Shown: positions 5,376 through 39,950 of the stretch, piece by piece | How positions within the stretch are numbered: position 1 is the first letter of the stretch | Layout of the letters: each line of letters opens with the position of its first letter | Virus record (IMG/VR): IMGVR_UViG_3300047548_002028 | Span: 1-40,087 of that record | Reading direction: 5' to 3' (one strand) | DNA length: 40,087 bases | Source: a virus | Program-made: the position numbers and the translations under genes | Notes under the pieces: model-generated | What the model was told of the DNA's origin: nothing | What the model saw: only the letters and a program-made list of their open reading frames with translations | The model's database searches: none

Positions 5376-5615
5376 ATGCTCAAATTTTTGACAATTGGTA
5401 TGCTGTTATCTTTAGGGTGTGCACATGCAAGTGGAAAACCATTGATTCAGGATGAAGATAGACCTGTGTGCACAATGGTTGAAATCAGAAAAGGCTTAGA
5501 TATCATCCGTTGCTCTTTTCCCACCGATAATACTGTTTGTTATGTCACTATGGAAAACTTTAAAGTCAACAATACACAATGCTTACGACTTGTTGAAGCT
5601 GAAATTAGGACTTAA
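5376..5615 (+). CDS. Small secreted cysteine-containing protein
   Basis: The product is 79 residues. An N-terminal signal sequence (MLKFLTIGMLLSLGCAHASG) could be cut by signal peptidase I after AHA, or act as an imperfect lipobox at SLGC. The mature part has four Cys (PVC, IIRC, TVC, TQC), consistent with two disulphides in the periplasm. AGGAG lies 5 nt before the ATG. The gene stands alone on the plus strand behind two terminators and converges with the VRR-NUC gene, overlapping it by 11 bp. I do not recognise the family. A role in lysis, superinfection exclusion or host surface change is possible but unsupported. Confidence 0.55.
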   Translation: MLKFLTIGMLLSLGCAHASGKPLIQDEDRPVCTMVEIRKGLDIIRCSFPTDNTVCYVTMENFKVNNTQCLRLVEAEIRT

Positions 5616-6054
5616 GATACCCTTCACGGCGAAAACAATCCTCCACATCCTCCACACACCTTGCCACAATCCCTATCCCACCCCTGTTGTTGATTTGCAT
5701 CAAAAAGGTGGCTTGCTCAGGAGAGAGTTTGCCATTGACACTCTTAACCTCAATGGCCAAAAACCTCCCTAGACCAGTCATTAAGCCCTCATCAATCCCA
5801 CAAGTGCCCACAACACCCAATATGTCACTCACACCCCTTATACGCCCTATTCCGTAGGGAAAACGGTATGTGCGAGCTATGGGGTCGTATATGCCAACAT
5901 TTTGTTGCCGAAAAGTAAAACAGAAGTCTTGGATATGAGGTTGGTTTAGGTAGGCTATAATCTCACCTTGGATAACAGTTTCTTTTTTGCTCCCAAAAGA
6001 ATCAAGTATGTCTTTTTTCTTAGCTTTTTTACTTTGACTAACAACAGTCTCCAT
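5605..6054 (-). CDS. VRR-NUC domain nuclease
   Basis: The product is 149 residues. After a basic N-terminus, the VRR-NUC fold runs from about residue 25 to 140: an N-terminal helix with E31, a strand and loop with GVSDILGV (D77), the core FLAIEVKSVNGKLSPEQ (E102, K104, Q114), and a final GIGIVARCVEDVEDCF helix. These are the PD-(D/E)XK active-site positions of the family found in phage and in FAN1-type nucleases, which cut branched or flapped DNA. Together with the Sak4-like ATPase and SSB it probably resolves replication or recombination intermediates before packaging. AAGGA lies 8 nt before the ATG at 6054. The family assignment is firm; the substrate is inferred. Confidence 0.8.
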   Translation of the reverse strand: METVVSQSKKAKKKDILDSFGSKKETVIQGEIIAYLNQPHIQDFCFTFRQQNVGIYDPIARTYRFPYGIGRIRGVSDILGVVGTCGIDEGLMTGLGRFLAIEVKSVNGKLSPEQATFLMQINNRGGIGIVARCVEDVEDCFRREGYLKS

Positions 6055-22872: not shown

Positions 22873-23766
22873 TTAAGCACCAACGGTTGTAATGATTTCA
22901 CAAGTGCGCAGATCATCAGCAGCCTGTTTAGCGTGGAATGATTTGACTGCATACCACTGATTACCAGTAAATACCCATTCACGATGGAGGATGTCGTAAT
23001 CCGATTCCATTTCGGCTTCTTGTTTTACGATGTAACCATAGGCTTCCGGTTTGTGCAAAAATGCCCGGTAAGTATCGGTAGAAGCAATTTGAGTAGAAGC
23101 AGGAACCGTATCCACAACCACAATAGCCATACCCAGCATGGTGGTCATCATACCTTGAGTCACAAGCTCAGGAGCGAGAGAGTTGTCTGTTTTCAGGGCG
23201 GCAAAGGTGTCATCTCTCAAAAGGTCAAGCCATTGACGGGAGTGCATAAAGCACACAACAGCTTCGTTCCCACGGTCTCCAAAGGCTTTGTATTTGGCGG
23301 CAGCTAACCTTTTGACGGTCATAACATCAGTTGCAAGGGTAGAGGTGTACCCATTTACAAAGTTTCCGCTACCTGCAAATTCCGTTAACAAGTCTGCATC
23401 CACTTTTTCGGCCATTCTGCGGCCAATTTGCATTTGAATATTGGAAATGATGGTGTCTGTTTGAGCCGCAGATTTTTTAAAAGCCTTCTTTTTTATACCA
23501 ACAGCTTTACCGATTTCTTTCACGGTGGCCGAAAAAGAGTCATCGGAGATTGAGTCAACAAGTAACCCTTCGCTTTCCGCTGGCTCTTCTGCCGCACCAA
23601 TGGTCTTGAAATAGGGGAAATTGATGGTTAAGCCCGGTTGGGATGTCAAAGTATCATCGGTGAATGCAAATGCGCCAAAGACCAATTTCCGGCGGAAATA
23701 AGCCATAACGTGATCTGACCACACCTTTGGTTCAAAAACAAAATCTGCGGCTACTGTAGCTGCCAT
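22873..23766 (-). CDS. Major capsid protein (HK97-fold)
   Basis: The product is 297 residues. It shows the general order of HK97-fold capsids: an N-terminal arm, an E-loop region (INFPYFKTIGAAEEPAESEG), KAVGIKKKAFKKSAAQ, a spine helix region (ISNIQMQIGRRMAEKVDADLL), the P-domain (AVVCFMHSRQWLDLLRD), MLGMAIVVVDTVP and a final YAVKSFHAKQAA strand. It follows the scaffold gene by 7 nt. I see no prohead protease gene beside it and no N-terminal delta domain, so the separate scaffold likely serves instead. Confidence 0.85.
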   Translation of the reverse strand: MAATVAADFVFEPKVWSDHVMAYFRRKLVFGAFAFTDDTLTSQPGLTINFPYFKTIGAAEEPAESEGLLVDSISDDSFSATVKEIGKAVGIKKKAFKKSAAQTDTIISNIQMQIGRRMAEKVDADLLTEFAGSGNFVNGYTSTLATDVMTVKRLAAAKYKAFGDRGNEAVVCFMHSRQWLDLLRDDTFAALKTDNSLAPELVTQGMMTTMLGMAIVVVDTVPASTQIASTDTYRAFLHKPEAYGYIVKQEAEMESDYDILHREWVFTGNQWYAVKSFHAKQAADDLRTCEIITTVGA

Positions 23767-23773
23767 TGAATTT

Positions 23774-24424
23774 CTACCTTATAGTTTTTTTCCACTCTGC
23801 CATTAAATCGGCATATTTTTGTGGATTTGTTTGATATAACTTGGTTCTTTCCGACATCCCCAGTTTACTAAACTGCTGAACTGTCATTTCACCTCTTGTA
23901 TCAGGAGCGGATTGCGGAGTCTTTACGCTACTTTGCATCATCATAGGACCAGATTTTTGCTTAACCTCTGCCAAAATACCACTCATGGTGTCCTGGCTCA
24001 GTTCTTCACCTTCCTCTAGCTCCATGGTTGCTTGCTGGATCAAAAACTCAAAATAAGGGATGCCAGTTGCAGGGATGCCATGGTTTACCGCTTCCGAGAG
24101 GATAGCGTTTTTAAATGACAACTCCTGAGTAGCACTTTGCAATTGGACAACTGCTTCTTGTGGGTCAATAGATTCCTCTTCTCCCCCAAAAACAGATTGG
24201 ATCCGCCCTTGCAGGTCCTCAAATTGAGCTTTGACTTGATTTGCCGTTGTCCTGTGGCTTGCCGCTTCTTGACGCAAAGATTTGATATATTTTTGGACAC
24301 CTGGATCCAAATTGGATAAATCAAATTTGCTACCTTCTGCTTGCTCACCTTGAACTTGACTATTTTCTTGTGCTGTTTCAGTTGGTTGCTCACCTGGGGC
24401 AACGACTTGGGTCTCTTCGCTCAT
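23774..24424 (-). CDS. Scaffolding protein
   Basis: The product is 216 residues, acidic and Gln-rich (ETAQENSQVQGEQAEGS near the N-terminus), with a coiled-coil centre (VQKYIKSLRQEAASHRTTA to VQLQSATQELSFKNAILSE) and a basic end (MAEWKKTIR) that could bind capsid. This is the standard scaffold profile, and the gene lies immediately before the capsid gene. GGAGAGATT precedes the ATG. It begins the scaffold-to-fibre transcript; the terminator at 24482-24512 lies just upstream. Confidence 0.8.
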   Translation of the reverse strand: MSEETQVVAPGEQPTETAQENSQVQGEQAEGSKFDLSNLDPGVQKYIKSLRQEAASHRTTANQVKAQFEDLQGRIQSVFGGEEESIDPQEAVVQLQSATQELSFKNAILSEAVNHGIPATGIPYFEFLIQQATMELEEGEELSQDTMSGILAEVKQKSGPMMMQSSVKTPQSAPDTRGEMTVQQFSKLGMSERTKLYQTNPQKYADLMAEWKKTIR

Positions 24425-25672: not shown

Positions 25673-26620
25673 TCACATTCTCACTGAGCTGTACCAAACA
25701 TCACCATCATGGCTCATCACTTTACGCAGGTCACTATAACTGTAAGTCAACCCTTTGCCTGAAACAGATGTGTCATACTCATACCCTCCTAACCAATTTC
25801 CATAAGGGTCGTGCACGACAAAACCCATAGATGTATATCCAATCACCACAACAATATGCCCTGGTTTTGTAAAATAACCATGCGTGACAACAGGTTGGCC
25901 AAGTCTAATCAAACTCTTTATTTCATCGAAGGTGCCATTATAGGTTTTGGTAACTTGAGCACGAGAACCCAAAACTGTTTTGTAAAGATTAGCTAATGTT
26001 TCTGGAGATTGGCCAGTCTCTTTACCATAGACTTGATAAAGCTGATCAGCACGGATTTCTTTCCCCCAAAATGCAAATAACATACTTGCACTTGTGATTC
26101 CGCATGTTCCCGTTGGGTCATAACTATTATCAAGCTGAGAACGGTAAGGAACAGTTAAAAGAGGATGAGCTGATGTGTTCAAACCCACAACATACTCTTT
26201 GGGTATATACCCCTGGACTCCTTTATCTGGAGTTGCAAAACGATCTATCCAATACCAATCATCTTTTTCAGAATTGATTTGTACCAAACTGCCTGTTAGT
26301 AATTTGCGCACCACATTGCCATCAGAAGAAGGCTCACTTCGTCCATTGGCAAAGCCATCCGAGCTTATGATGTAACCTATTTTTCCTTCTTTCAAAATTT
26401 GCGATTCATGAATCCAAACAGAAGGGTTTAAAACTGATAATGCCATTTTATCTATGGCAGAAATAACCTGTACCCAATTTTTTTCATTTTGTTGTTTTTG
26501 AACAAGCAAAACTGTTCCATTATCAAAAATACGCAAAGGCTTTAAGTCTGTTTGGGGTTTTTGTCTAATTCCAGCAATTCCTACAGACGTTTTGACAGAA
26601 ACAAGATGGTAATCAGACAA
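25673..26620 (-). CDS. C39-like cysteine peptidase with SH3-like repeats (lysin)
   Basis: The product is 315 residues. Two SH3-like segments (about 16-55 and 92-145; the second with GRSEPSSDGNVVRKLLTGSL and WYWIDRFATPDKGVQGYIP) precede a Peptidase C39-like domain. Its active-site pattern is visible: Q162 and Cys173 in DPTGTCGITSASML, His255 in KPGHIVVVIGY and Asp271 in VVHDPYGNW. SH3 repeats plus this peptidase fold suggest a peptidoglycan hydrolase, either an endolysin or a virion-associated lysin. AGGAGG lies 7 nt before a TTG at 26620, just after the MuF-like stop, so I use that start rather than the longer frame from 26755. It sits in the packaging block, which favours a virion role. Confidence 0.7.
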   Translation of the reverse strand: MSDYHLVSVKTSVGIAGIRQKPQTDLKPLRIFDNGTVLLVQKQQNEKNWVQVISAIDKMALSVLNPSVWIHESQILKEGKIGYIISSDGFANGRSEPSSDGNVVRKLLTGSLVQINSEKDDWYWIDRFATPDKGVQGYIPKEYVVGLNTSAHPLLTVPYRSQLDNSYDPTGTCGITSASMLFAFWGKEIRADQLYQVYGKETGQSPETLANLYKTVLGSRAQVTKTYNGTFDEIKSLIRLGQPVVTHGYFTKPGHIVVVIGYTSMGFVVHDPYGNWLGGYEYDTSVSGKGLTYSYSDLRKVMSHDGDVWYSSVRM

Positions 26621-26633
26621 AATTTTTCCTCCT

Positions 26634-27458
26634 TCAAGAATTCCAACTTGGCCGATATGGGATAACAATAGACCGATCATTAGGACGGTCGATGGTGTTG
26701 AACACCCTCCATTTGCCTTTCCACTGGTACCTAAACGGCTCTCCAATATCAGCAACTAAATTCAGACTATGAGCATAAATACTATCTTCTGCTGTACGAG
26801 AGTCCATAGGATGGTAAAGCGTTTTCTTAAGGTCAGGAAATGACTTGCTTTGCACATCCTCCATGCCAAATTGCTTAGCAGTGCCATAGATATTGTGCAT
26901 TTCCGTGCGCACAATTCTTCTCAGCCGCCATTCCTCTCTCCCAAAAAATCCTACCATGCGCCCTATAATATCTTCTGGAGGCACCACTTCCACAATGGCA
27001 TCCTGTAACCCAATCGCAATCTTGTCTCGCAGGGATTGAGAATAGGCTTTTATAGAGGCATCAAAGGTGTTGAATAGAAAATTCTTAGACTGACTTGCGA
27101 CCTTAACGGCATTGATATTGATGGGAACCATGCTTTGATTGAATTTTCTCTCAAAAACGCCCATTTCTATTCCCAAATGCTTTGATGCTAAATTGGCAAC
27201 AACTTCGGTCGAAAATTCCACATCACTGCGTAAAGACGCTTTAATGGCATCTATACCAGAATTGACTTGCAAAAGAGTAAACCTCACGGCCTCATCTACA
27301 GATTTGTCTTGAGAAAGAGTAAGACGGGATGCTAGTTTTTGTGCAACCCTTCTAAATATTTTTAGTATGTTGGTTGATTCCTGCTTCTCCAATTTAAACA
27401 AAGCATCGGCGTGGGATTCCAAAACATCAATATTGTCTATATCTTCAAAAAAACTCAT
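26634..27458 (-). CDS. MuF-like minor capsid protein
   Basis: The product is 274 residues. The C-terminal part carries the MuF/SPP1 gp7 pattern: RRIVRTEMHNIYGTAKQFGM, then KTLYHPMDSRTAEDSIYAHS and a tail with DRPNDRSIVIPYRPSW. The N-terminal 170 residues are helical. Such proteins bind the portal inside the head and help DNA delivery. It overlaps the upstream tagged gene by 4 bp (ATGA). Normally MuF follows the portal directly; here five tagged genes come between. Confidence 0.75.
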   Translation of the reverse strand: MSFFEDIDNIDVLESHADALFKLEKQESTNILKIFRRVAQKLASRLTLSQDKSVDEAVRFTLLQVNSGIDAIKASLRSDVEFSTEVVANLASKHLGIEMGVFERKFNQSMVPININAVKVASQSKNFLFNTFDASIKAYSQSLRDKIAIGLQDAIVEVVPPEDIIGRMVGFFGREEWRLRRIVRTEMHNIYGTAKQFGMEDVQSKSFPDLKKTLYHPMDSRTAEDSIYAHSLNLVADIGEPFRYQWKGKWRVFNTIDRPNDRSIVIPYRPSWNS

Positions 27459-28285
27459 GATTTGTCATTTACATTTGCAGCATAGACTGCTCCAGCAGTC
27501 CCAAGCCCAACGCCAGTTAGAAATTTCGCCTCATGAGCTTTCCAAAAATCTATAACTGGTTTTTTATAACTATATCCTGACTCCCTCTTCACTCGATTGA
27601 TTTTATCTATAAGAACAGACGCTTGTTTTGATTTTTGATTTGATTTTTGTGCAAATTTGATAGCTTCTTTTTGCATATTTGTTATTTTTGCATAATCAAA
27701 CACATCTTTTGATTTTATTGTTTTTTCTAATAAACTTGCTTGTTTGGAAATTTCAGAAGACGTTTTTGCAAAGCTAGAAGCCTTTTTTAAATTGTAGGCT
27801 TTTATAGCTTCCATAGATTTGACATAGCGAGTGACTCCAGAGAATCCTTGCGGCCCATGAATAGTCTTAGATAAAGTTTTTAACGCTTTAACTCCACCAA
27901 ATATAGCCCCAGCAGCAGCAGCCCCAGCCCCTAGACTCATACCAATGATTTCTGGATTGAGATATTTGTTTCCAAATATTCCTCTGTTGTGAGTAAATTT
28001 TTGCTTTTCTACTCTTTCTGCTTCCAAAGATTTGCGTATGGCATAGCGTTCCCTGCGCTGCTCATTGCGTTTATCCAACTTTGTTTTATAAGGGCCACGA
28101 GAACCCACGCCAGAGGGTTTGTTTGCTACTGTAAAAGTTTGACCTGTCTTTCCTTTAGCACCACCAACCAAATTCATATTATTTGATGGGTTGATTTGCG
28201 GGTTAACTCGAATAGGGATAATCCTTCCCCCTATGCGCCGAAAGATAGTTTCGCCTAACCCTTGCTGTTTTTCTTTGTTTTGCAT
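27455..28285 (-). CDS. Tagged protein E of the FVRINGR family
   Basis: The product is 276 residues. The family motif is present in a diverged form at residues 14-27 (IFRRIGGRIIPIRV), after ten extra N-terminal residues. The body is very basic and helical, with a glycine/alanine-rich hydrophobic segment (IIGMSLGAGAAAAGAIFGGV) and another near the C-terminus (FLTGVGLGTAGAVYAANV). These could insert into membranes. It is the last of the five tagged genes and is coupled to the MuF-like gene. Its function is unknown; I infer an internal head or ejected protein from the tag, the glycine-rich segments and the position. Confidence 0.65.
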   Translation of the reverse strand: MQNKEKQQGLGETIFRRIGGRIIPIRVNPQINPSNNMNLVGGAKGKTGQTFTVANKPSGVGSRGPYKTKLDKRNEQRRERYAIRKSLEAERVEKQKFTHNRGIFGNKYLNPEIIGMSLGAGAAAAGAIFGGVKALKTLSKTIHGPQGFSGVTRYVKSMEAIKAYNLKKASSFAKTSSEISKQASLLEKTIKSKDVFDYAKITNMQKEAIKFAQKSNQKSKQASVLIDKINRVKRESGYSYKKPVIDFWKAHEAKFLTGVGLGTAGAVYAANVNDKS

Positions 28286-28305: not shown

Positions 28306-29085
28306 TTATTTTTTCTTTTTTAATGGCTTTAATCTTGCATTATCGTATTCTCCTTGTCTTTTTTGATTTGCTGCTACGTTTGTCACTGCACCTAAAGTCC
28401 CTCCTATAGCAGCTCCTCCAATAGTTCCTTTTTGTATTGCACCTAAACTATCTATATTTTCTAGACGGTTTACAGTTTTACGACCTAAGATTTTTGCATT
28501 TTTGCCAGCTTTATTAGTAAATGATCTCATTGATTTTGCTGTAGAACTTGATGTTGCTTTAGAAATTGCACTTGATGCTTTGCTACTGGCTTGGTTTATA
28601 CCACGCCTTGCTGTTTGCCCTATTGAACTAGTTGCTGCTCTTGAAAGTGCACTGGAGGTTTTGTTAGCGGCTTGGCTTATATTTCTGATAGCTGATTGCG
28701 CTCCAGGACGACTTGCTGTTTTCGATGCCACTTTCGAAACTGTTTTAAATCCTACATTTGCAGCACTTTTAGCTCCTTTAAGAGCACCACCAATTTTTCC
28801 TAAAATTTTCCCCCTATTACCCAATACGGCTCCAGCCACTCCTAAACCCGTACCAGCAAACATACCAATTACTGATCCAAAAGATGCACCACCAATTAAT
28901 CCAGTTGTAGCCCTTGCAGCCACAGAGGGTCCTTTTTGTCTTTGAGAACTTCCAGGCATTTTTCCTTGGCCACTTTTAGCACCTTGATTCATACCTTTTC
29001 CTGGAGGAATCTCGCCAGGCTTTACCTTTATAGGAACCACTCGGCCATTTATGCGCACAAAACGAACGGTTGGATCTTGGCTCAT
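28306..29085 (-). CDS. Tagged protein D of the FVRINGR family
   Basis: The product is 259 residues. The motif is VRFVRINGRVVPIK at residues 7-20. The body is rich in Ala, Ser, Gly and Lys. A long glycine-zipper stretch (LIGGASFGSVIGMFAGTGLG) comes first, then two similar helical repeats (GAQSAIRNISQAANKTSSAL and GQTARRGINQASSKASSAIS), a second glycine-rich stretch (GTIGGAAIGGTLGAVTNVAA) and a lysine-rich end. AAGGGG precedes the ATG. The composition recalls amphipathic ejected proteins or histone-like DNA condensers. No known domain was recognised. Confidence 0.65.
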   Translation of the reverse strand: MSQDPTVRFVRINGRVVPIKVKPGEIPPGKGMNQGAKSGQGKMPGSSQRQKGPSVAARATTGLIGGASFGSVIGMFAGTGLGVAGAVLGNRGKILGKIGGALKGAKSAANVGFKTVSKVASKTASRPGAQSAIRNISQAANKTSSALSRAATSSIGQTARRGINQASSKASSAISKATSSSTAKSMRSFTNKAGKNAKILGRKTVNRLENIDSLGAIQKGTIGGAAIGGTLGAVTNVAANQKRQGEYDNARLKPLKKKK

Positions 29086-29094
29086 AAAATCCCC

Positions 29095-29553
29095 TTATTT
29101 ATTTTTTTGTTTTGATAGAATCTTTGTGCCTATGATGCTTTTGTATATTTGTGAAAATCTTTTATCTAATTCTATAGGTTTTTTTCTTTCTTTTACAGAA
29201 TATTTATTAACAACACCTCCTATCATGCCAAAAAATGCAGCATTGATTCCTGCCCCAACCGCAAAGGCTCCTACTTTTTGAACTTTTGTTAATGTTGGTT
29301 TTAACATGGGATTTTTTGAGGTAATCAAAGCACTAACTCCCGTGATACCAATACCAACACCTGCGCCAATTTTAGCACCTGTTGAAAATGCTGATTTTTT
29401 TCTATCTTTTTTAATTCTATAATGTTTATCAAATTGATAAGTTGCATATGCTCCTCTAGCAACATTTGTCGCTATACTTTCAGCAGGACTTTTTTGCTTT
29501 ATTGGAACAATACGCCCGTTAATTCTGACAAATTTAACATTTTGGTTTTGCAT
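29095..29553 (-). CDS. Tagged protein C of the FVRINGR family
   Basis: The product is 152 residues. The motif is VKFVRINGRIVPIK at residues 6-19. Two hydrophobic glycine-rich segments follow (GAKIGAGVGIGITGVSALI and KVGAFAVGAGINAAFFGMIG), so it is probably a two-pass membrane protein after release, with a basic C-terminal end. Its ATG overlaps the stop codon of protein B (TAATG). The function is unknown; an internal virion protein is my inference. Confidence 0.65.
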   Translation of the reverse strand: MQNQNVKFVRINGRIVPIKQKSPAESIATNVARGAYATYQFDKHYRIKKDRKKSAFSTGAKIGAGVGIGITGVSALITSKNPMLKPTLTKVQKVGAFAVGAGINAAFFGMIGGVVNKYSVKERKKPIELDKRFSQIYKSIIGTKILSKQKNK

Positions 29554-30203
29554 TAGCCTAACCTTCTTAAAAATTTGCCGACAGGTTGCACCGCATTGAG
29601 TAATGGTTTTCGACCTAAATACAATCCAGTTCCAGCAACAGCAACCCCAGCTCCAATGCGAGTCACATTTTGTGCTTTTTCGTACGTGCCCAACGCATAT
29701 TCTCTAACTTTTTGCCTCTCCTCTGTATTTCTTCCTGGGGCAGCGTCCCAAGCTCTTTTCTCAAGTTTTAAAGTACGTCCAGAAATTGCCCCTATTAAAC
29801 CTGTGTCCAAAAACGGATTAAATTTATTAACTTTAAAATCTTTTGTATGACCAATTTCATGAGCTAATACATGTTTATTCACTTTTTTAGATACAAATAC
29901 AAAGTTTTTTTCTTTATTCGGCAAGGCAAAAGCATTTTCACCTTTTTCTGCAATTTTGACAGTAGGTGTTAATAAAAGTTTTCTAAACCAACCAAATTGA
30001 TTATTTTTTTTAAAATCTTCCGTTCCGGTAATCAAATTTTCTTTATATCTATATTTTTTGGCTTGTGCCTTTGCATCTACAACACTCATATTTGTTATAA
30101 CGTCTTTTAATGCTGCTTTTGTTTGTGTATTTGTCTTTTTGTCAATTTTCATAGGTACTATTCTTCCGTTGATTCTCACGAACCTAACGTCTTGATTTTG
30201 CAT
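29553..30203 (-). CDS. Tagged protein B: putative zinc metallopeptidase
   Basis: The product is 216 residues. The motif VRFVRINGRIVPMK lies at residues 6-19. A zinc-binding HEIGH motif lies at 115-119 within VNKHVLAHEIGHTKDF, with a plausible third ligand E148 in TLKLEKRAWDAA, the spacing of gluzincin-like peptidases. A single glycine-rich hydrophobic segment (IGAGVAVAGTGLYLG, about 183-197) is near the C-terminus. It overlaps protein A by 20 bp. It may mature head proteins, cut tags from its sister proteins, or act on host targets after injection. The metallopeptidase motif is seen; activity and target are inference. Confidence 0.65.
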   Translation of the reverse strand: MQNQDVRFVRINGRIVPMKIDKKTNTQTKAALKDVITNMSVVDAKAQAKKYRYKENLITGTEDFKKNNQFGWFRKLLLTPTVKIAEKGENAFALPNKEKNFVFVSKKVNKHVLAHEIGHTKDFKVNKFNPFLDTGLIGAISGRTLKLEKRAWDAAPGRNTEERQKVREYALGTYEKAQNVTRIGAGVAVAGTGLYLGRKPLLNAVQPVGKFLRRLG

Positions 30204-30846
30204 CTTTATTCCTTTGTATTATATAAGCAATACCACCACCTAAAGCTAAGCCCGATGCGAGTCCTAACAAACCACCTTTTGTGGCAAATCTTATTTTATT
30301 TTTTTTGGAGTATATTTCCGAAAGTTTACCAAAATTGTTTTTATAAAGACTTGTCTGATTTTCAAATAACGATTTTTGAGCATTGTATGCTATTTTATTG
30401 TTTTTAATATTATTTTTTGTAACTAAATTTAATAGATTATAATTGGATTTGAGAGTATCGGCTTTAGATGGATCCAAACCTCTTTTTCCTAAATAATCTT
30501 TGTACATATTTTTTGCTTTTGTAAAACCCATTTCATCATCTAAAGGATTAAATTTTAATGGATTTGTGGATTTTTCGACTGAATACTTTGTGATTTTCCC
30601 AGCTTCATCTATGTCTTTCATTAAAAAATCTTGATTTTGCTTTTTGAATACAGAATATTCTTTTTCTAAAATATTGAATTTGGATTTTTTATCTTTATTG
30701 AATTTAACAAGAGCAATACCAGCACCCGCTCCTGCTCCAGTTGCTCCCATTAATCCCACTGCTGGAATGGTTTTATCTTTTTTTTTAGCCCTTATTGGGA
30801 CTATACGTCCTCTTACTCGGATAAATCTAATGTCTTGGTTTTCCAT
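30184..30846 (-). CDS. Tagged protein A of the FVRINGR family
   Basis: The product is 220 residues. The motif is IRFIRVRGRIVPIR at residues 5-18. A glycine-rich hydrophobic segment follows at once (AVGLMGATGAGAGAGIALV), then a long lysine- and asparagine-rich helical middle and a second hydrophobic segment (GGLLGLASGLALGGGIAYII) just before the basic end. The ATG at 30846 overlaps the portal stop (TGATG), with AAAGGAG 7 nt upstream. The gene is markedly AT-rich. The function is unknown; it heads the tagged cluster directly behind the portal. Confidence 0.65.
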   Translation of the reverse strand: MENQDIRFIRVRGRIVPIRAKKKDKTIPAVGLMGATGAGAGAGIALVKFNKDKKSKFNILEKEYSVFKKQNQDFLMKDIDEAGKITKYSVEKSTNPLKFNPLDDEMGFTKAKNMYKDYLGKRGLDPSKADTLKSNYNLLNLVTKNNIKNNKIAYNAQKSLFENQTSLYKNNFGKLSEIYSKKNKIRFATKGGLLGLASGLALGGGIAYIIQRNKDAKSRR

Positions 30847-32291
30847 CAAAAGGCTCCAAAAGGATTGAGTGAGGGTTGGTTGGCTATTTTTTCAATCTCT
30901 GCTTCCACATCTTGAACATCAAAATCTTTTGCCAACCAACGGGTGAGCGTTTCCCTTGAGATTAAGGAGGCTTGGCTTACCCTGACCGCCACATTCACTT
31001 TCTCATTTAAGTCTACAATTGTTTGTGGAAAAACTGGGGGCCATACAACCTGAACGTCAAAACTGACCGGCTTATAACCAGGCGGGATGGAAATCGGAGA
31101 AGCACCCGCTTGTCCGTAAATAGCTAAATTGATGACTGCCATTTTTTGCAAAATATTGACTAAATGCTTTTGCTGCTGGGGCCTCAATTCATCAATCAGC
31201 TCAACCAACGGACTGTGCATAATCTCAAGCGCACGTCCTGAAATAGACTGTGCATTGATTTTCTCAGGATCCATGAGAAGGATCCGAGAAATATTTTGAA
31301 TATTGGTTTTGATTTTGTCTACAAATTCAACTGCGGTTTGCGCTGCACCCAGGTTAGATTCGAGAAAATTGGCCGTTCCATCCCTACCCAAATTCCATCC
31401 CTTGGCACTCGATTTGACTAGACTGCTTATTTCGTCTTGGTCTAAGCCTGTGATAATGAGCTGAGGGTCGATGTTGTAGCGTATAGCTGTCGATGTTTGA
31501 GAGAGTTTGTAGTTCATTTCATCAATAAAATCCAAAACATCTTCTAAAAGGCTAGGACCATCTATTTTTTGTGGAACTATGGCAGTCCGTATCCACTCTC
31601 CTTGCACAAAACCTAAATTGTGCTCAACCCTCTCGACCTCTTCAAATGTTGGTTCTGTGTCCGAGTTGTATTCTGGAGTGTCATAAAGAATGTCAGCTAT
31701 TTTTGTGAGTTCTATTTTTACCCATTTTTCTTTTTTATCGCTTGGGTCTTTAAATGTGTATTTGATTTCAATTCGCACTAATTCGTCGTTCTCATCAAAT
31801 TCTGGATAGCAATACTGCGCTTCAAATGCTTCAAGTTTAAAATTTCCAGCTTGCACAGAAATTCGGAGAAACGCAGAACCTTGGACAATCACTGATTTAA
31901 AACATTGCAAAAGTGTTGAGTCCAAATTTGTGATTCGGATTATGGTTTGCAAATACTCTTCAGTCATGGGATCAGCTTCAATTTTTATGGCAGGGAAGCG
32001 CTTTTTGCCCCACATAAAACTGGCTAAGGTACCTGCCATCCTTTTGGCAAAGAGAAAATTGATACAAGGTTTGCGGCGGTGAATAGGTATATATTCTTGG
32101 GTTGGCTCTAATACCCATGGGGCCAAATGGTCATATTGTGTCCCCTCATAATACATATCAAGTTTATGCAGCCTATCATCACGCCACTTCTTGTTTTTAG
32201 ACACCTTATCGGCAGGGATAATCCCAAGCGTGTTGTCTATGCGTTGTTGTGTCCGTGATTTTGGAAGTCCAAGCCAATTGCGGTCTGCCAT
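30846..32291 (-). CDS. Portal protein (SPP1 gp6-type)
   Basis: The product is 481 residues. The SPP1/PBSX portal pattern is present: LHKLDMYYEGTQYD near the N-terminus, FAKRMAGTLASFMWGKKRFP, the wing region with strands and acidic loops, the long helix LLEDVLDFIDEMNYKLSQTS, TAIRYNIDPQLIITG and ISGRALEIMHSPLVELI. It forms the dodecameric DNA gate at one capsid vertex. GAGGA lies 5 nt before the ATG at 32291, preferred over an ATG at 32303 that overlaps the terminase stop. It follows the large terminase as usual. Confidence 0.85.
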   Translation of the reverse strand: MADRNWLGLPKSRTQQRIDNTLGIIPADKVSKNKKWRDDRLHKLDMYYEGTQYDHLAPWVLEPTQEYIPIHRRKPCINFLFAKRMAGTLASFMWGKKRFPAIKIEADPMTEEYLQTIIRITNLDSTLLQCFKSVIVQGSAFLRISVQAGNFKLEAFEAQYCYPEFDENDELVRIEIKYTFKDPSDKKEKWVKIELTKIADILYDTPEYNSDTEPTFEEVERVEHNLGFVQGEWIRTAIVPQKIDGPSLLEDVLDFIDEMNYKLSQTSTAIRYNIDPQLIITGLDQDEISSLVKSSAKGWNLGRDGTANFLESNLGAAQTAVEFVDKIKTNIQNISRILLMDPEKINAQSISGRALEIMHSPLVELIDELRPQQQKHLVNILQKMAVINLAIYGQAGASPISIPPGYKPVSFDVQVVWPPVFPQTIVDLNEKVNVAVRVSQASLISRETLTRWLAKDFDVQDVEAEIEKIANQPSLNPFGAF

Positions 32292-32299
32292 ATGAGTCC

Positions 32300-33964
32300 T
32301 CATCTACCTAGTGCATCAATATTAACGCCATTTGCATTGTAACGCCCCTCAACCAACGACCAGAGCATATGAGTGGCATCTGGAGCATCGTCGTGTGAGG
32401 CCATTGGAAACGCTTCCATTTGATTTTTGTATTCTTGGCTCAAATTGCGATTAAAAAGCATCCACCCATTGGACACTTTAGGCTCAAGAGTAAATATGCG
32501 TTTGAGCTTATTTTCTGTATTGATAATATCGTAAAAATTGACCTTGATTCCCCAATTCTTGAAACCTGATTTTTTGCGGTTTTCTTCTCTTTGTTTTTTG
32601 GCAGTTGCTATATTAGGGATAATTAAGTTACGGAACAAATTGGTTTCAACTCCAAATTTTTCAATAGGTTGCATTTCACAAAATTGAAATATGCGGTCAA
32701 TAGATTCCGTTGGAGTGAGACGTTGCGTGATGTCTTCTAAGACATAACATCTCCCTTTATAGTCCGTAGCTCCAAGTAAAATACATGTGTAGTCAGCTTT
32801 AGAGTTTTTTTGCACCTTACGCTCACCTGCTGCTGGGTCAATAACGGCATAAAACCGCAATTGCCCCATAGAGACAACTTCTCCCGTTGATTCGATATGG
32901 ATTCCATTTTGATGAACCGTAAACCATTTAAATTGCTTAAAGAGTGCGTCTACTGCTGCAACAGGTTCGTTTTGGTCTTCTTTCTGAAAGGCCAAACGTC
33001 CAATCTCTACCCGCTTTTTCATCAAGTCGAGATAAGTGTTTTTTTCCGGCCATAACACTTCAGAACCTTTGAGCATGTCTTCTTTGTGCTCATTAAAAAA
33101 ATCGTGAGAATCGCAAAAACGGTTTAGGTTACCTAAATCAATGTATATCTTTTCCCATTTTTGCCACAAATCCTCTCTATGTGCCCATGATTTTATGGCT
33201 TTGTATACTTTTCCATGATAATTAGGGTTTTTGATAAGCCGTTGCAGAAGAGATTCGTGGTGCAGGACCGTGCCTATAAAATGAATATTTGTACCGGGTT
33301 GGCCGAGATATGTGAGGTCTTCTTTAAACCAGTTTTCAAGTTTTTCCCTTTGGATCTCCGAAAAGACTTCTTCTGAATGCTCGACATCGTCAAGAATAAT
33401 CTTGGTTGGGCGTTCACTCCCAAAACGGATACCACGGACTTGGGTTCCCACTCCAAACCCGGACACCATTGTTTGATTCCCATTACAAGATGCCACAAAA
33501 GACTTTTCGCTAACTTTCTTGTTAGGGAAAAAAGAGCCATAGCAATACCGTAGAAAATCGTTTTCCAGCAACTCATTTTTAATATCACGGAGTTTCTGTA
33601 AAGCCTGAGCCTCGGTGTTAGAGAAAATGGTGATATAGGTTTCTTGGTGGTAACAAATATCGTGGATGGGTTTAATAAGCGAGACCATTGTAGACTTTGC
33701 GGAACCTCGTGGTGCTGCATCCACCCAGCGAGTGCCACGCTCATTCTTGTCCCAACGTGCAAATAAATCCTTATGAAATGGAGAAAAAGGGTATTTACAA
33801 AACTTGCCAAAAAACATTTTTGCAAATAATTCCAAGTCATGTCGGCAGCGTGTTTGCAATATACGTCTAACAGCTTTAGGGTCATCCTTCACCACCACCA
33901 ATAAGTCGGCTAATTGCTTCTGCGATAACTTTTCCAATTCGTTCATTTTCTTGCTCATCCGCAT
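32300..33964 (-). CDS. terL: Terminase large subunit
   Basis: The product is 554 residues. The ATPase part has Walker A APRGSAKST (84-92), Walker B TKIILDDVE (187-195) and the coupling motif FIGT (229-232). The RNase H-like nuclease part has D376 in FYAVIDPAAG, E440 in FGVETN and aspartates in HDDAPDA (524-530). This enzyme pumps DNA into the head and cuts it. The frame overlaps the small subunit gene by 83 bp if it starts at 33964. A second ATG at 33946 is possible, and no strong ribosome binding site decides between them. The type of packaging (cos or pac) cannot be told from the sequence. Confidence 0.92.
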   Translation of the reverse strand: MRMSKKMNELEKLSQKQLADLLVVVKDDPKAVRRILQTRCRHDLELFAKMFFGKFCKYPFSPFHKDLFARWDKNERGTRWVDAAPRGSAKSTMVSLIKPIHDICYHQETYITIFSNTEAQALQKLRDIKNELLENDFLRYCYGSFFPNKKVSEKSFVASCNGNQTMVSGFGVGTQVRGIRFGSERPTKIILDDVEHSEEVFSEIQREKLENWFKEDLTYLGQPGTNIHFIGTVLHHESLLQRLIKNPNYHGKVYKAIKSWAHREDLWQKWEKIYIDLGNLNRFCDSHDFFNEHKEDMLKGSEVLWPEKNTYLDLMKKRVEIGRLAFQKEDQNEPVAAVDALFKQFKWFTVHQNGIHIESTGEVVSMGQLRFYAVIDPAAGERKVQKNSKADYTCILLGATDYKGRCYVLEDITQRLTPTESIDRIFQFCEMQPIEKFGVETNLFRNLIIPNIATAKKQREENRKKSGFKNWGIKVNFYDIINTENKLKRIFTLEPKVSNGWMLFNRNLSQEYKNQMEAFPMASHDDAPDATHMLWSLVEGRYNANGVNIDALGR

Positions 33965-39356: not shown

Positions 39357-39950
39357 TTATGTCTCGTGAATTTGTTTTTCTAGGATTTCTAATTTCCTTC
39401 TAAATTCAGATCGTCTTATTTTATTTCGATTGATTTTATCAGGAAATTTATTTTTCAATTCAAAATCGCTCAATGCCTTGAGATAAGCCTGATGTGCTTC
39501 TTGTTGAGTAAAGTAACTTCCCAGATAAAATACTTTTCCATTTAATTGAATTTTTGCTTGCCAAGGTTTTATTAAAAATCTTTGGCTTATTATTTTTATG
39601 TTTTCAAGCTTTCTGAAACATGTTCCAACCAAATGTCCTTTGCGATGGCATTCTTTGTTGGATGTATTTTGTCTTCGTGTACATTCTCTTAAGTTTTCTA
39701 TCCTGTTATCAGCACGATTTCCGTTTAAATGATCAATATCTCCAATTGGGTCCATTCCGTTTTCTATCAACCAAATAAGTCTGTGAACTAAATATTTTTT
39801 ATTTTGATAACAAAATAATCTATATCCCTGACCATTCCATCCAGCACCATTTACTATTTTAAGTCTCTGCGAAGGTTTTACTTTCCAATATAATTCACCT
39901 TTGTTTTTGTCATAATCAAATATTTTTAATATTTCTTCACGATTCTTCAT
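39357..39950 (-). CDS. HNH-AP2 homing endonuclease
   Basis: The product is 197 residues. An HNH_3 domain spans about 40-105: YLVHRLIWLIENGMDPIGDI with H56, then DHLNGNRADNRIENLREC with H74. It is followed by an AP2-type DNA-binding domain (PWQAKIQLNGKVFYLGSYFT, QQEAHQAYLKAL) and a basic tail. This is the common freestanding phage homing endonuclease. It converges with the holin-like gene and has no strong ribosome binding site. It is AT-rich and likely a mobile passenger. It is unrelated in domain order to the other HNH gene at 18563-19042. Confidence 0.88.
   Translation of the reverse strand: MKNREEILKIFDYDKNKGELYWKVKPSQRLKIVNGAGWNGQGYRLFCYQNKKYLVHRLIWLIENGMDPIGDIDHLNGNRADNRIENLRECTRRQNTSNKECHRKGHLVGTCFRKLENIKIISQRFLIKPWQAKIQLNGKVFYLGSYFTQQEAHQAYLKALSDFELKNKFPDKINRNKIRRSEFRRKLEILEKQIHET

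Follow-up and report, generated by a model that had tools for sequence, protein, structure and literature searches.

A tagged, predicted gluzincin-type metallopeptidase in the head-gene block of an uncultured phage, plausibly one of a pool of interchangeable virion proteins

Five adjacent ORFs sharing a short peptide tag lie between the portal gene and the gene for a MuF-type minor head protein in a viral DNA of 40,087 nucleotides (IMG/VR record IMGVR_UViG_3300047548_002028, positions 1 to 40,087), the whole of which is called here the window. ORF B, the second of the five, adds to the tag a HEIGH motif, and the locus raises the question of what a putative peptidase does among head genes: whether it matures the head, trims its sister proteins, or enters the host with the DNA. 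ORF B (29553-30203, minus strand) encodes 216 aa, from the ATG at 30203 to the stop at 29553. The initial annotation had placed tag and HEIGH in one protein, and this is confirmed, the tag (MQNQDVRFVRINGRIVPMK) being found at residues 6-19 and HEIGH at residues 115-119. The relevant features are the following.

22873..23766, minus strand: major capsid protein (phrog_544, 1.2e-37)
23774..24424, minus strand: predicted scaffold protein, distinct from the capsid gene
about 25673-26620, minus strand: untagged SH3 plus C39-type cysteine peptidase, between MuF and scaffold (Pfam 1.6e-20)
26634..27458, minus strand: MuF-type minor head protein, 274 aa, separate ORF without effector extension
27455..28285, minus strand: tagged ORF E
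28306..29085, minus strand: tagged ORF D
29095..29553, minus strand: tagged ORF C, its ATG overlapping the stop of ORF B
29553..30203, minus strand: ORF B, tagged putative zinc metallopeptidase (homolog L037:9862-10500:-, 37% over 147 aa, E 9e-20)
29613..29669, minus strand: Gly-rich, weakly hydrophobic C-terminal stretch of ORF B, residues 179-197 (Kyte-Doolittle)
29742..29990, minus strand: predicted zincin core of ORF B, residues 72-154 (AlphaFold2, seven rows, pLDDT 64.7)
29751..29762, minus strand: E148-x-x-A151 of ORF B, predicted third metal ligand; both residues invariant in seven members
29847..29861, minus strand: HEIGH, ORF B residues 115-119; H, E, G and H invariant in seven members
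30147..30188, minus strand: tag of ORF B, residues 6-19, VRFVRINGRIVPMK; predicted beta-hairpin (strands 6-11 and 14-19), low-confidence model
30184..30846, minus strand: tagged ORF A, MENQDIRFIRVRGRIVPIR
30846..32303, minus strand: portal protein (phrog_64, 2.4e-28)

Tagged genes cluster near head genes (terminase, portal, MuF, scaffold, capsid). Related loci repeatedly show the gene order terminase, portal, tagged genes, MuF, scaffold, capsid, sheath, and in them tagged genes are found also ahead of the portal and beyond the capsid. Two nucleases are encoded elsewhere in the window, an HNH endonuclease (HNH_3, 1.8e-16; 39357-39950, minus strand) and a protein with a VRR-NUC domain (1.9e-05, over cut-off; 5605-6054, minus strand).

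The tag fits the consensus V[RV]F[IRV]R[IKV][NRG]GR[IV][IV]PI[RK]. It was identified in 239 ORFs from about 75 viral stretches, the shuffled control giving 0.0; the five tagged ORFs of the window compare with 0.002 in shuffles. Most instances are N-terminal (189), 30 are C-terminal and 24 are located elsewhere, and some proteins are tagged at both ends. A family of 12 members (such as L138:9406-9933, L129:11673-12233 and L005:3340-3882) often features the tag, or a close variant of it, at both termini. Synonymous sites of the window tags are saturated (pooled pS 0.82, pN 0.23) while the peptides agree, which argues that the tag is held by selection and excludes recent copying. Tags from the same phage are barely more similar to each other than tags from different phages (0.616 and 0.594, respectively), and co-evolution with a phage-specific receptor is therefore not claimed. 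Since the loci were collected via the tag, its apparent universality is in part an effect of selection.

A scan for the tag in genomes of bacteria and archaea found eight loci, two of which have several tagged ORFs; one of these two agrees in length and match position with a viral contig. A tagged phage contig, L064 (JAFCCX010000028.1), is binned within a Pacearchaeota genome; equal to the viral contig L042 in length and match position, it probably duplicates that phage record. The window's phage clade has no match among the annotated phages searched: no match was obtained in INPHARED, where the silence of short tag queries is weak evidence because they were possibly lost to the low-complexity filter. 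The core sequences of the tag are not mentioned in the full text of the open papers searched.

Proteins carrying the tag are diverse. Clustering sorted the 199 non-redundant tagged ORFs into 41 groups, and the biggest group (120 members) is partly chained through the tag itself. Over the Pfam cut-off are three ADP-ribosyltransferases of the ART-PolyVal type (L061:3536-4279, 2.6e-14; L133:8578-9318, 1.6e-17; L141:3862-4620, 3.4e-11), a domain named after early-phase effectors of phages and plasmids (PMC5512222), and GNAT acetyltransferases encoded in L043, L061 and L120. A tagged family of four members lacking Pfam matches (L038:3837-4859, L135:11978-12880, L129:14076-14732, L138:1983-2696) is possibly kinase-like, as judged by eye.

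Searches with ORF B as single sequence returned zero relatives. Pfam gave nothing over the cut-off (best E 0.023), NCBIfam no relevant match above it, PHROGs only sub-threshold matches and the PDB sequence search only chance matches; no additional domain was found. Relatives were obtained by scanning IMG/VR for the tag, written as degenerate DNA; the scans yielded dozens of contigs bearing runs of tagged ORFs. The closest homolog found is encoded in L037, and carries HEIGH and ESEARAWD; the corresponding E148 of ORF B sits within KLEKRAWD. Five more tagged lineages (L075/L123, L079/L124, L083/L093/L125, L109, L012/L122) feature HE[LM]GH followed by ExxA. HExGH...ExxA is thus present in seven tagged members, six of which are 14-40% identical to ORF B, and only H115, E116, G118, H119, E148 and A151 are invariant in the seven-row alignment. 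The spacing between HEXXH and Glu varies. An Asp three residues past HEXXH (D122) is shared by ORF B and the L037 protein, and is missing from the other five. The seven peptidases make three sub-groups, whose resemblance outside the tag is mostly confined to the motif; they share so little beyond it that common descent is in doubt, and the seven may not be one family.

The motif is enriched among tagged ORFs. Of the ORFs of 100 aa or more from related loci, 8 of the 222 with a tag contain HE[ILMV]GH and 0 of the 1989 without one (Fisher p 9e-9), a contrast somewhat inflated by non-coding frames among the untagged ORFs. Seven non-redundant tagged proteins have it, against 0.01 expected from shuffled tagged proteins. 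The invariance of E148 in the alignment is stronger evidence than this contrast, and substantiates the early suggestion that E148 is a plausible third ligand, as the residue is kept across seven divergent members.

The fold was predicted by AlphaFold2 for residues 27-216 from the seven-row alignment (pLDDT 64.7, pTM 0.63). An alignment of two rows gave a model of low quality (pLDDT 41.6), whose fold search was meaningless. In the seven-row model a helix comes first, then three strands, then the HEIGH helix and last the Glu helix. This order is zincin-like and, with modest confidence in the structure, matches the core described for phage polyvalent proteins (PMC5512222). The PDB fold search with this model gave no match. 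Of the top three Foldseek matches among viral models, one is a phage peptidase, one a minor capsid protein and one an uncharacterised protein of a Bacillus phage; their probabilities are 0.82-0.97, yet their E values just 0.05-0.07. Taking together the invariant H115, E116, H119 and E148 and the zincin-like predicted order, the assignment of ORF B as a putative tagged metallopeptidase of the gluzincin type (HExxH plus Glu) is well supported. The C-terminal segment, annotated at first as glycine-rich and hydrophobic, is indeed Gly-rich; its hydrophobicity is weak, the best 19-residue Kyte-Doolittle mean being 0.92 (residues 179-197), and is too low for calling a membrane anchor.

The initial annotation also considered that ORF B matures the head, and remarked that no other prohead protease was evident in the block. 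In 42 related records, searched for S78, ClpP-type and S49 proteases, none was found over the cut-off, and to this extent the statement stands; it does not hold for peptidases at large, because of the C39-type gene next to MuF. The latter probably starts at the TTG at 26620, after GGAGG, and is over the cut-off only in the window among the 42 records; a role at the cell wall is suggested by its SH3 domains and by a PHROG match resembling endolysins. The location of ORF B in the head block, and the lack of the three protease families, would suit a prohead maturation protease acting on capsid or scaffold. Its distribution would not. Seven of the 60 rows in a MuF tree carry the peptidase, scattered so that seven changes are counted, as many as with random labels; many records are fragments, and some absences may reflect missing sequence. 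Other phages lack the peptidase although their portal, MuF, scaffold and capsid genes are the same. The gene is inside the portal-to-capsid block in 3 of 46 blocks, and its position varies, being before the portal in L123 and after the capsid in L109. The predicted scaffold, moreover, is encoded by its own gene; P22 and phi29 are phages with a separate scaffold gene that mature without a protease. The head-maturation role, which we now consider highly improbable, was dropped on the evidence of the MuF tree. On the same tree the window and L037, the closest pair of peptidases, are divided by a supported split (96/91), as expected for cargo moving between phages.

The main rival explanation keeps ORF B as a processing protease, trimming tags or segments of the proteins packaged with it, in the head or after ejection. 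Autoprocessing has been proposed by Iyer et al. for the metallopeptidase domains of polyvalent proteins, and P1 DdrB is cut prior to packaging (PMC5512222); as the tag is common to ORF B and its sisters, their location is probably common too. On the other hand, most phages bearing tags have no peptidase, hence trimming is not generally needed, the five window proteins have no common motif past the tag, as judged by eye, and the tag is found at C-termini as well. We regard such processing as possible, though doubtful. ORF B might alternatively work as a part, endowed with peptidase activity, of a trans-envelope conduit, the tag being an assembly or membrane-insertion element. This would fit the hydrophobic segments of many tagged proteins (67% have a 19-residue hydrophobicity mean above 1.3), but soluble-looking enzymes such as the ARTs and GNATs bear the same tag, and this reading seems unlikely. 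Quite improbable, finally, is an inactive ORF B with a structural or ejection role, in which HEIGH is the relic of a recruited peptidase. Its N- and C-terminal parts resemble other tagged proteins, and certain tagged families are Gly-rich and hydrophobic; the four catalytic or ligand residues are retained in seven of seven divergent members, and no broken copies were seen.

The reading that we favour, by a cautious preference, is that ORF B is interchangeable virion cargo, a gluzincin-type peptidase docked by its tag, ejected with the DNA and cutting a host protein early. The sequence itself shows the tag, its presence on unrelated proteins, the conservation of the catalytic residues, the genes around ORF B and the patchy occurrence of the peptidase. 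The N-terminal tag, about 14 residues probably folded as a beta-hairpin, would be a docking signal common to the proteins of the cassette, and might draw ORF B into the head as it assembles, by way of a head component for which portal, MuF, scaffold and capsid are candidates. From the gene context, and from the precedents of T4, P1 and MuF proteins, we infer that ORF B is packaged in the head and ejected into the cell along with the DNA. Here zinc would be held by H115, H119 and E148, and E116 would act as general base. The target of this putative activity may be a host protein cut early in infection; sister proteins are a less likely target. An effector role is favoured because the ART and GNAT enzymes share the tag and, like the peptidase, occur each in only some phages.

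A broader proposal, for which we see even chances, is that in an uncultured clade of contractile-tailed phages a beta-hairpin of about 14 residues, at either terminus, serves as universal tag loading interchangeable zinc peptidases, ARTs and acetyltransferases into the head for injection. Were this true, the proteins packaged and injected by these phages could be predicted by looking for the tag in their sequences, and such cargo lists are otherwise hard to get for uncultured phages. It would also provide a short modular peptide for putting proteins inside phage heads, and the peptidase would belong to a common stock of injected enzymes that moves between phages.

A close likeness is to the internal proteins and Alt of T4, which carry a capsid targeting sequence (CTS), similarly a short terminal peptide on dissimilar basic proteins varying among related phages (PMC9026906). 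Ten residues of CTS are sufficient for foreign proteins to be taken into the head (PMC9026906). The tagged proteins are strongly basic (net charge +0.145 per residue), in parallel with the T4 internal proteins, described as basic (PMC9026906). Tag and CTS are unrelated in sequence; the tag, a putative packaging signal, may in addition be C-terminal or at both ends, and S78, ClpP and S49 prohead proteases that could remove it were not found. The metallopeptidase (MPTase) domains of polyvalent proteins resemble ORF B as modelled in having the HEXXH helix, and then the Glu helix, after three strands, and one phage-type clade of them has the Asp found three residues past HEXXH in ORF B and L037 (PMC5512222). 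ORF B, in contrast, is a stand-alone protein of 216 aa rather than a multidomain one, has no profile match, and the Asp is missing in the five other members. In MuF polymorphic toxins effector domains (metallopeptidase in 20%, ART) are similarly linked to a portal-associated head protein (PMC5576092), whereas here MuF is short and unfused, and the putative effectors are separate genes linked solely by the tag. The Dar proteins of phage P1, likened here by description, are several head-packaged proteins co-ejected with the DNA, but their packaging relies on DarA and Hdf, with no known shared tag (PMC12810830). Effectors packaged in phage heads are already known; what differs here is a short shared tag, placed at either end, on proteins encoded by separate genes.
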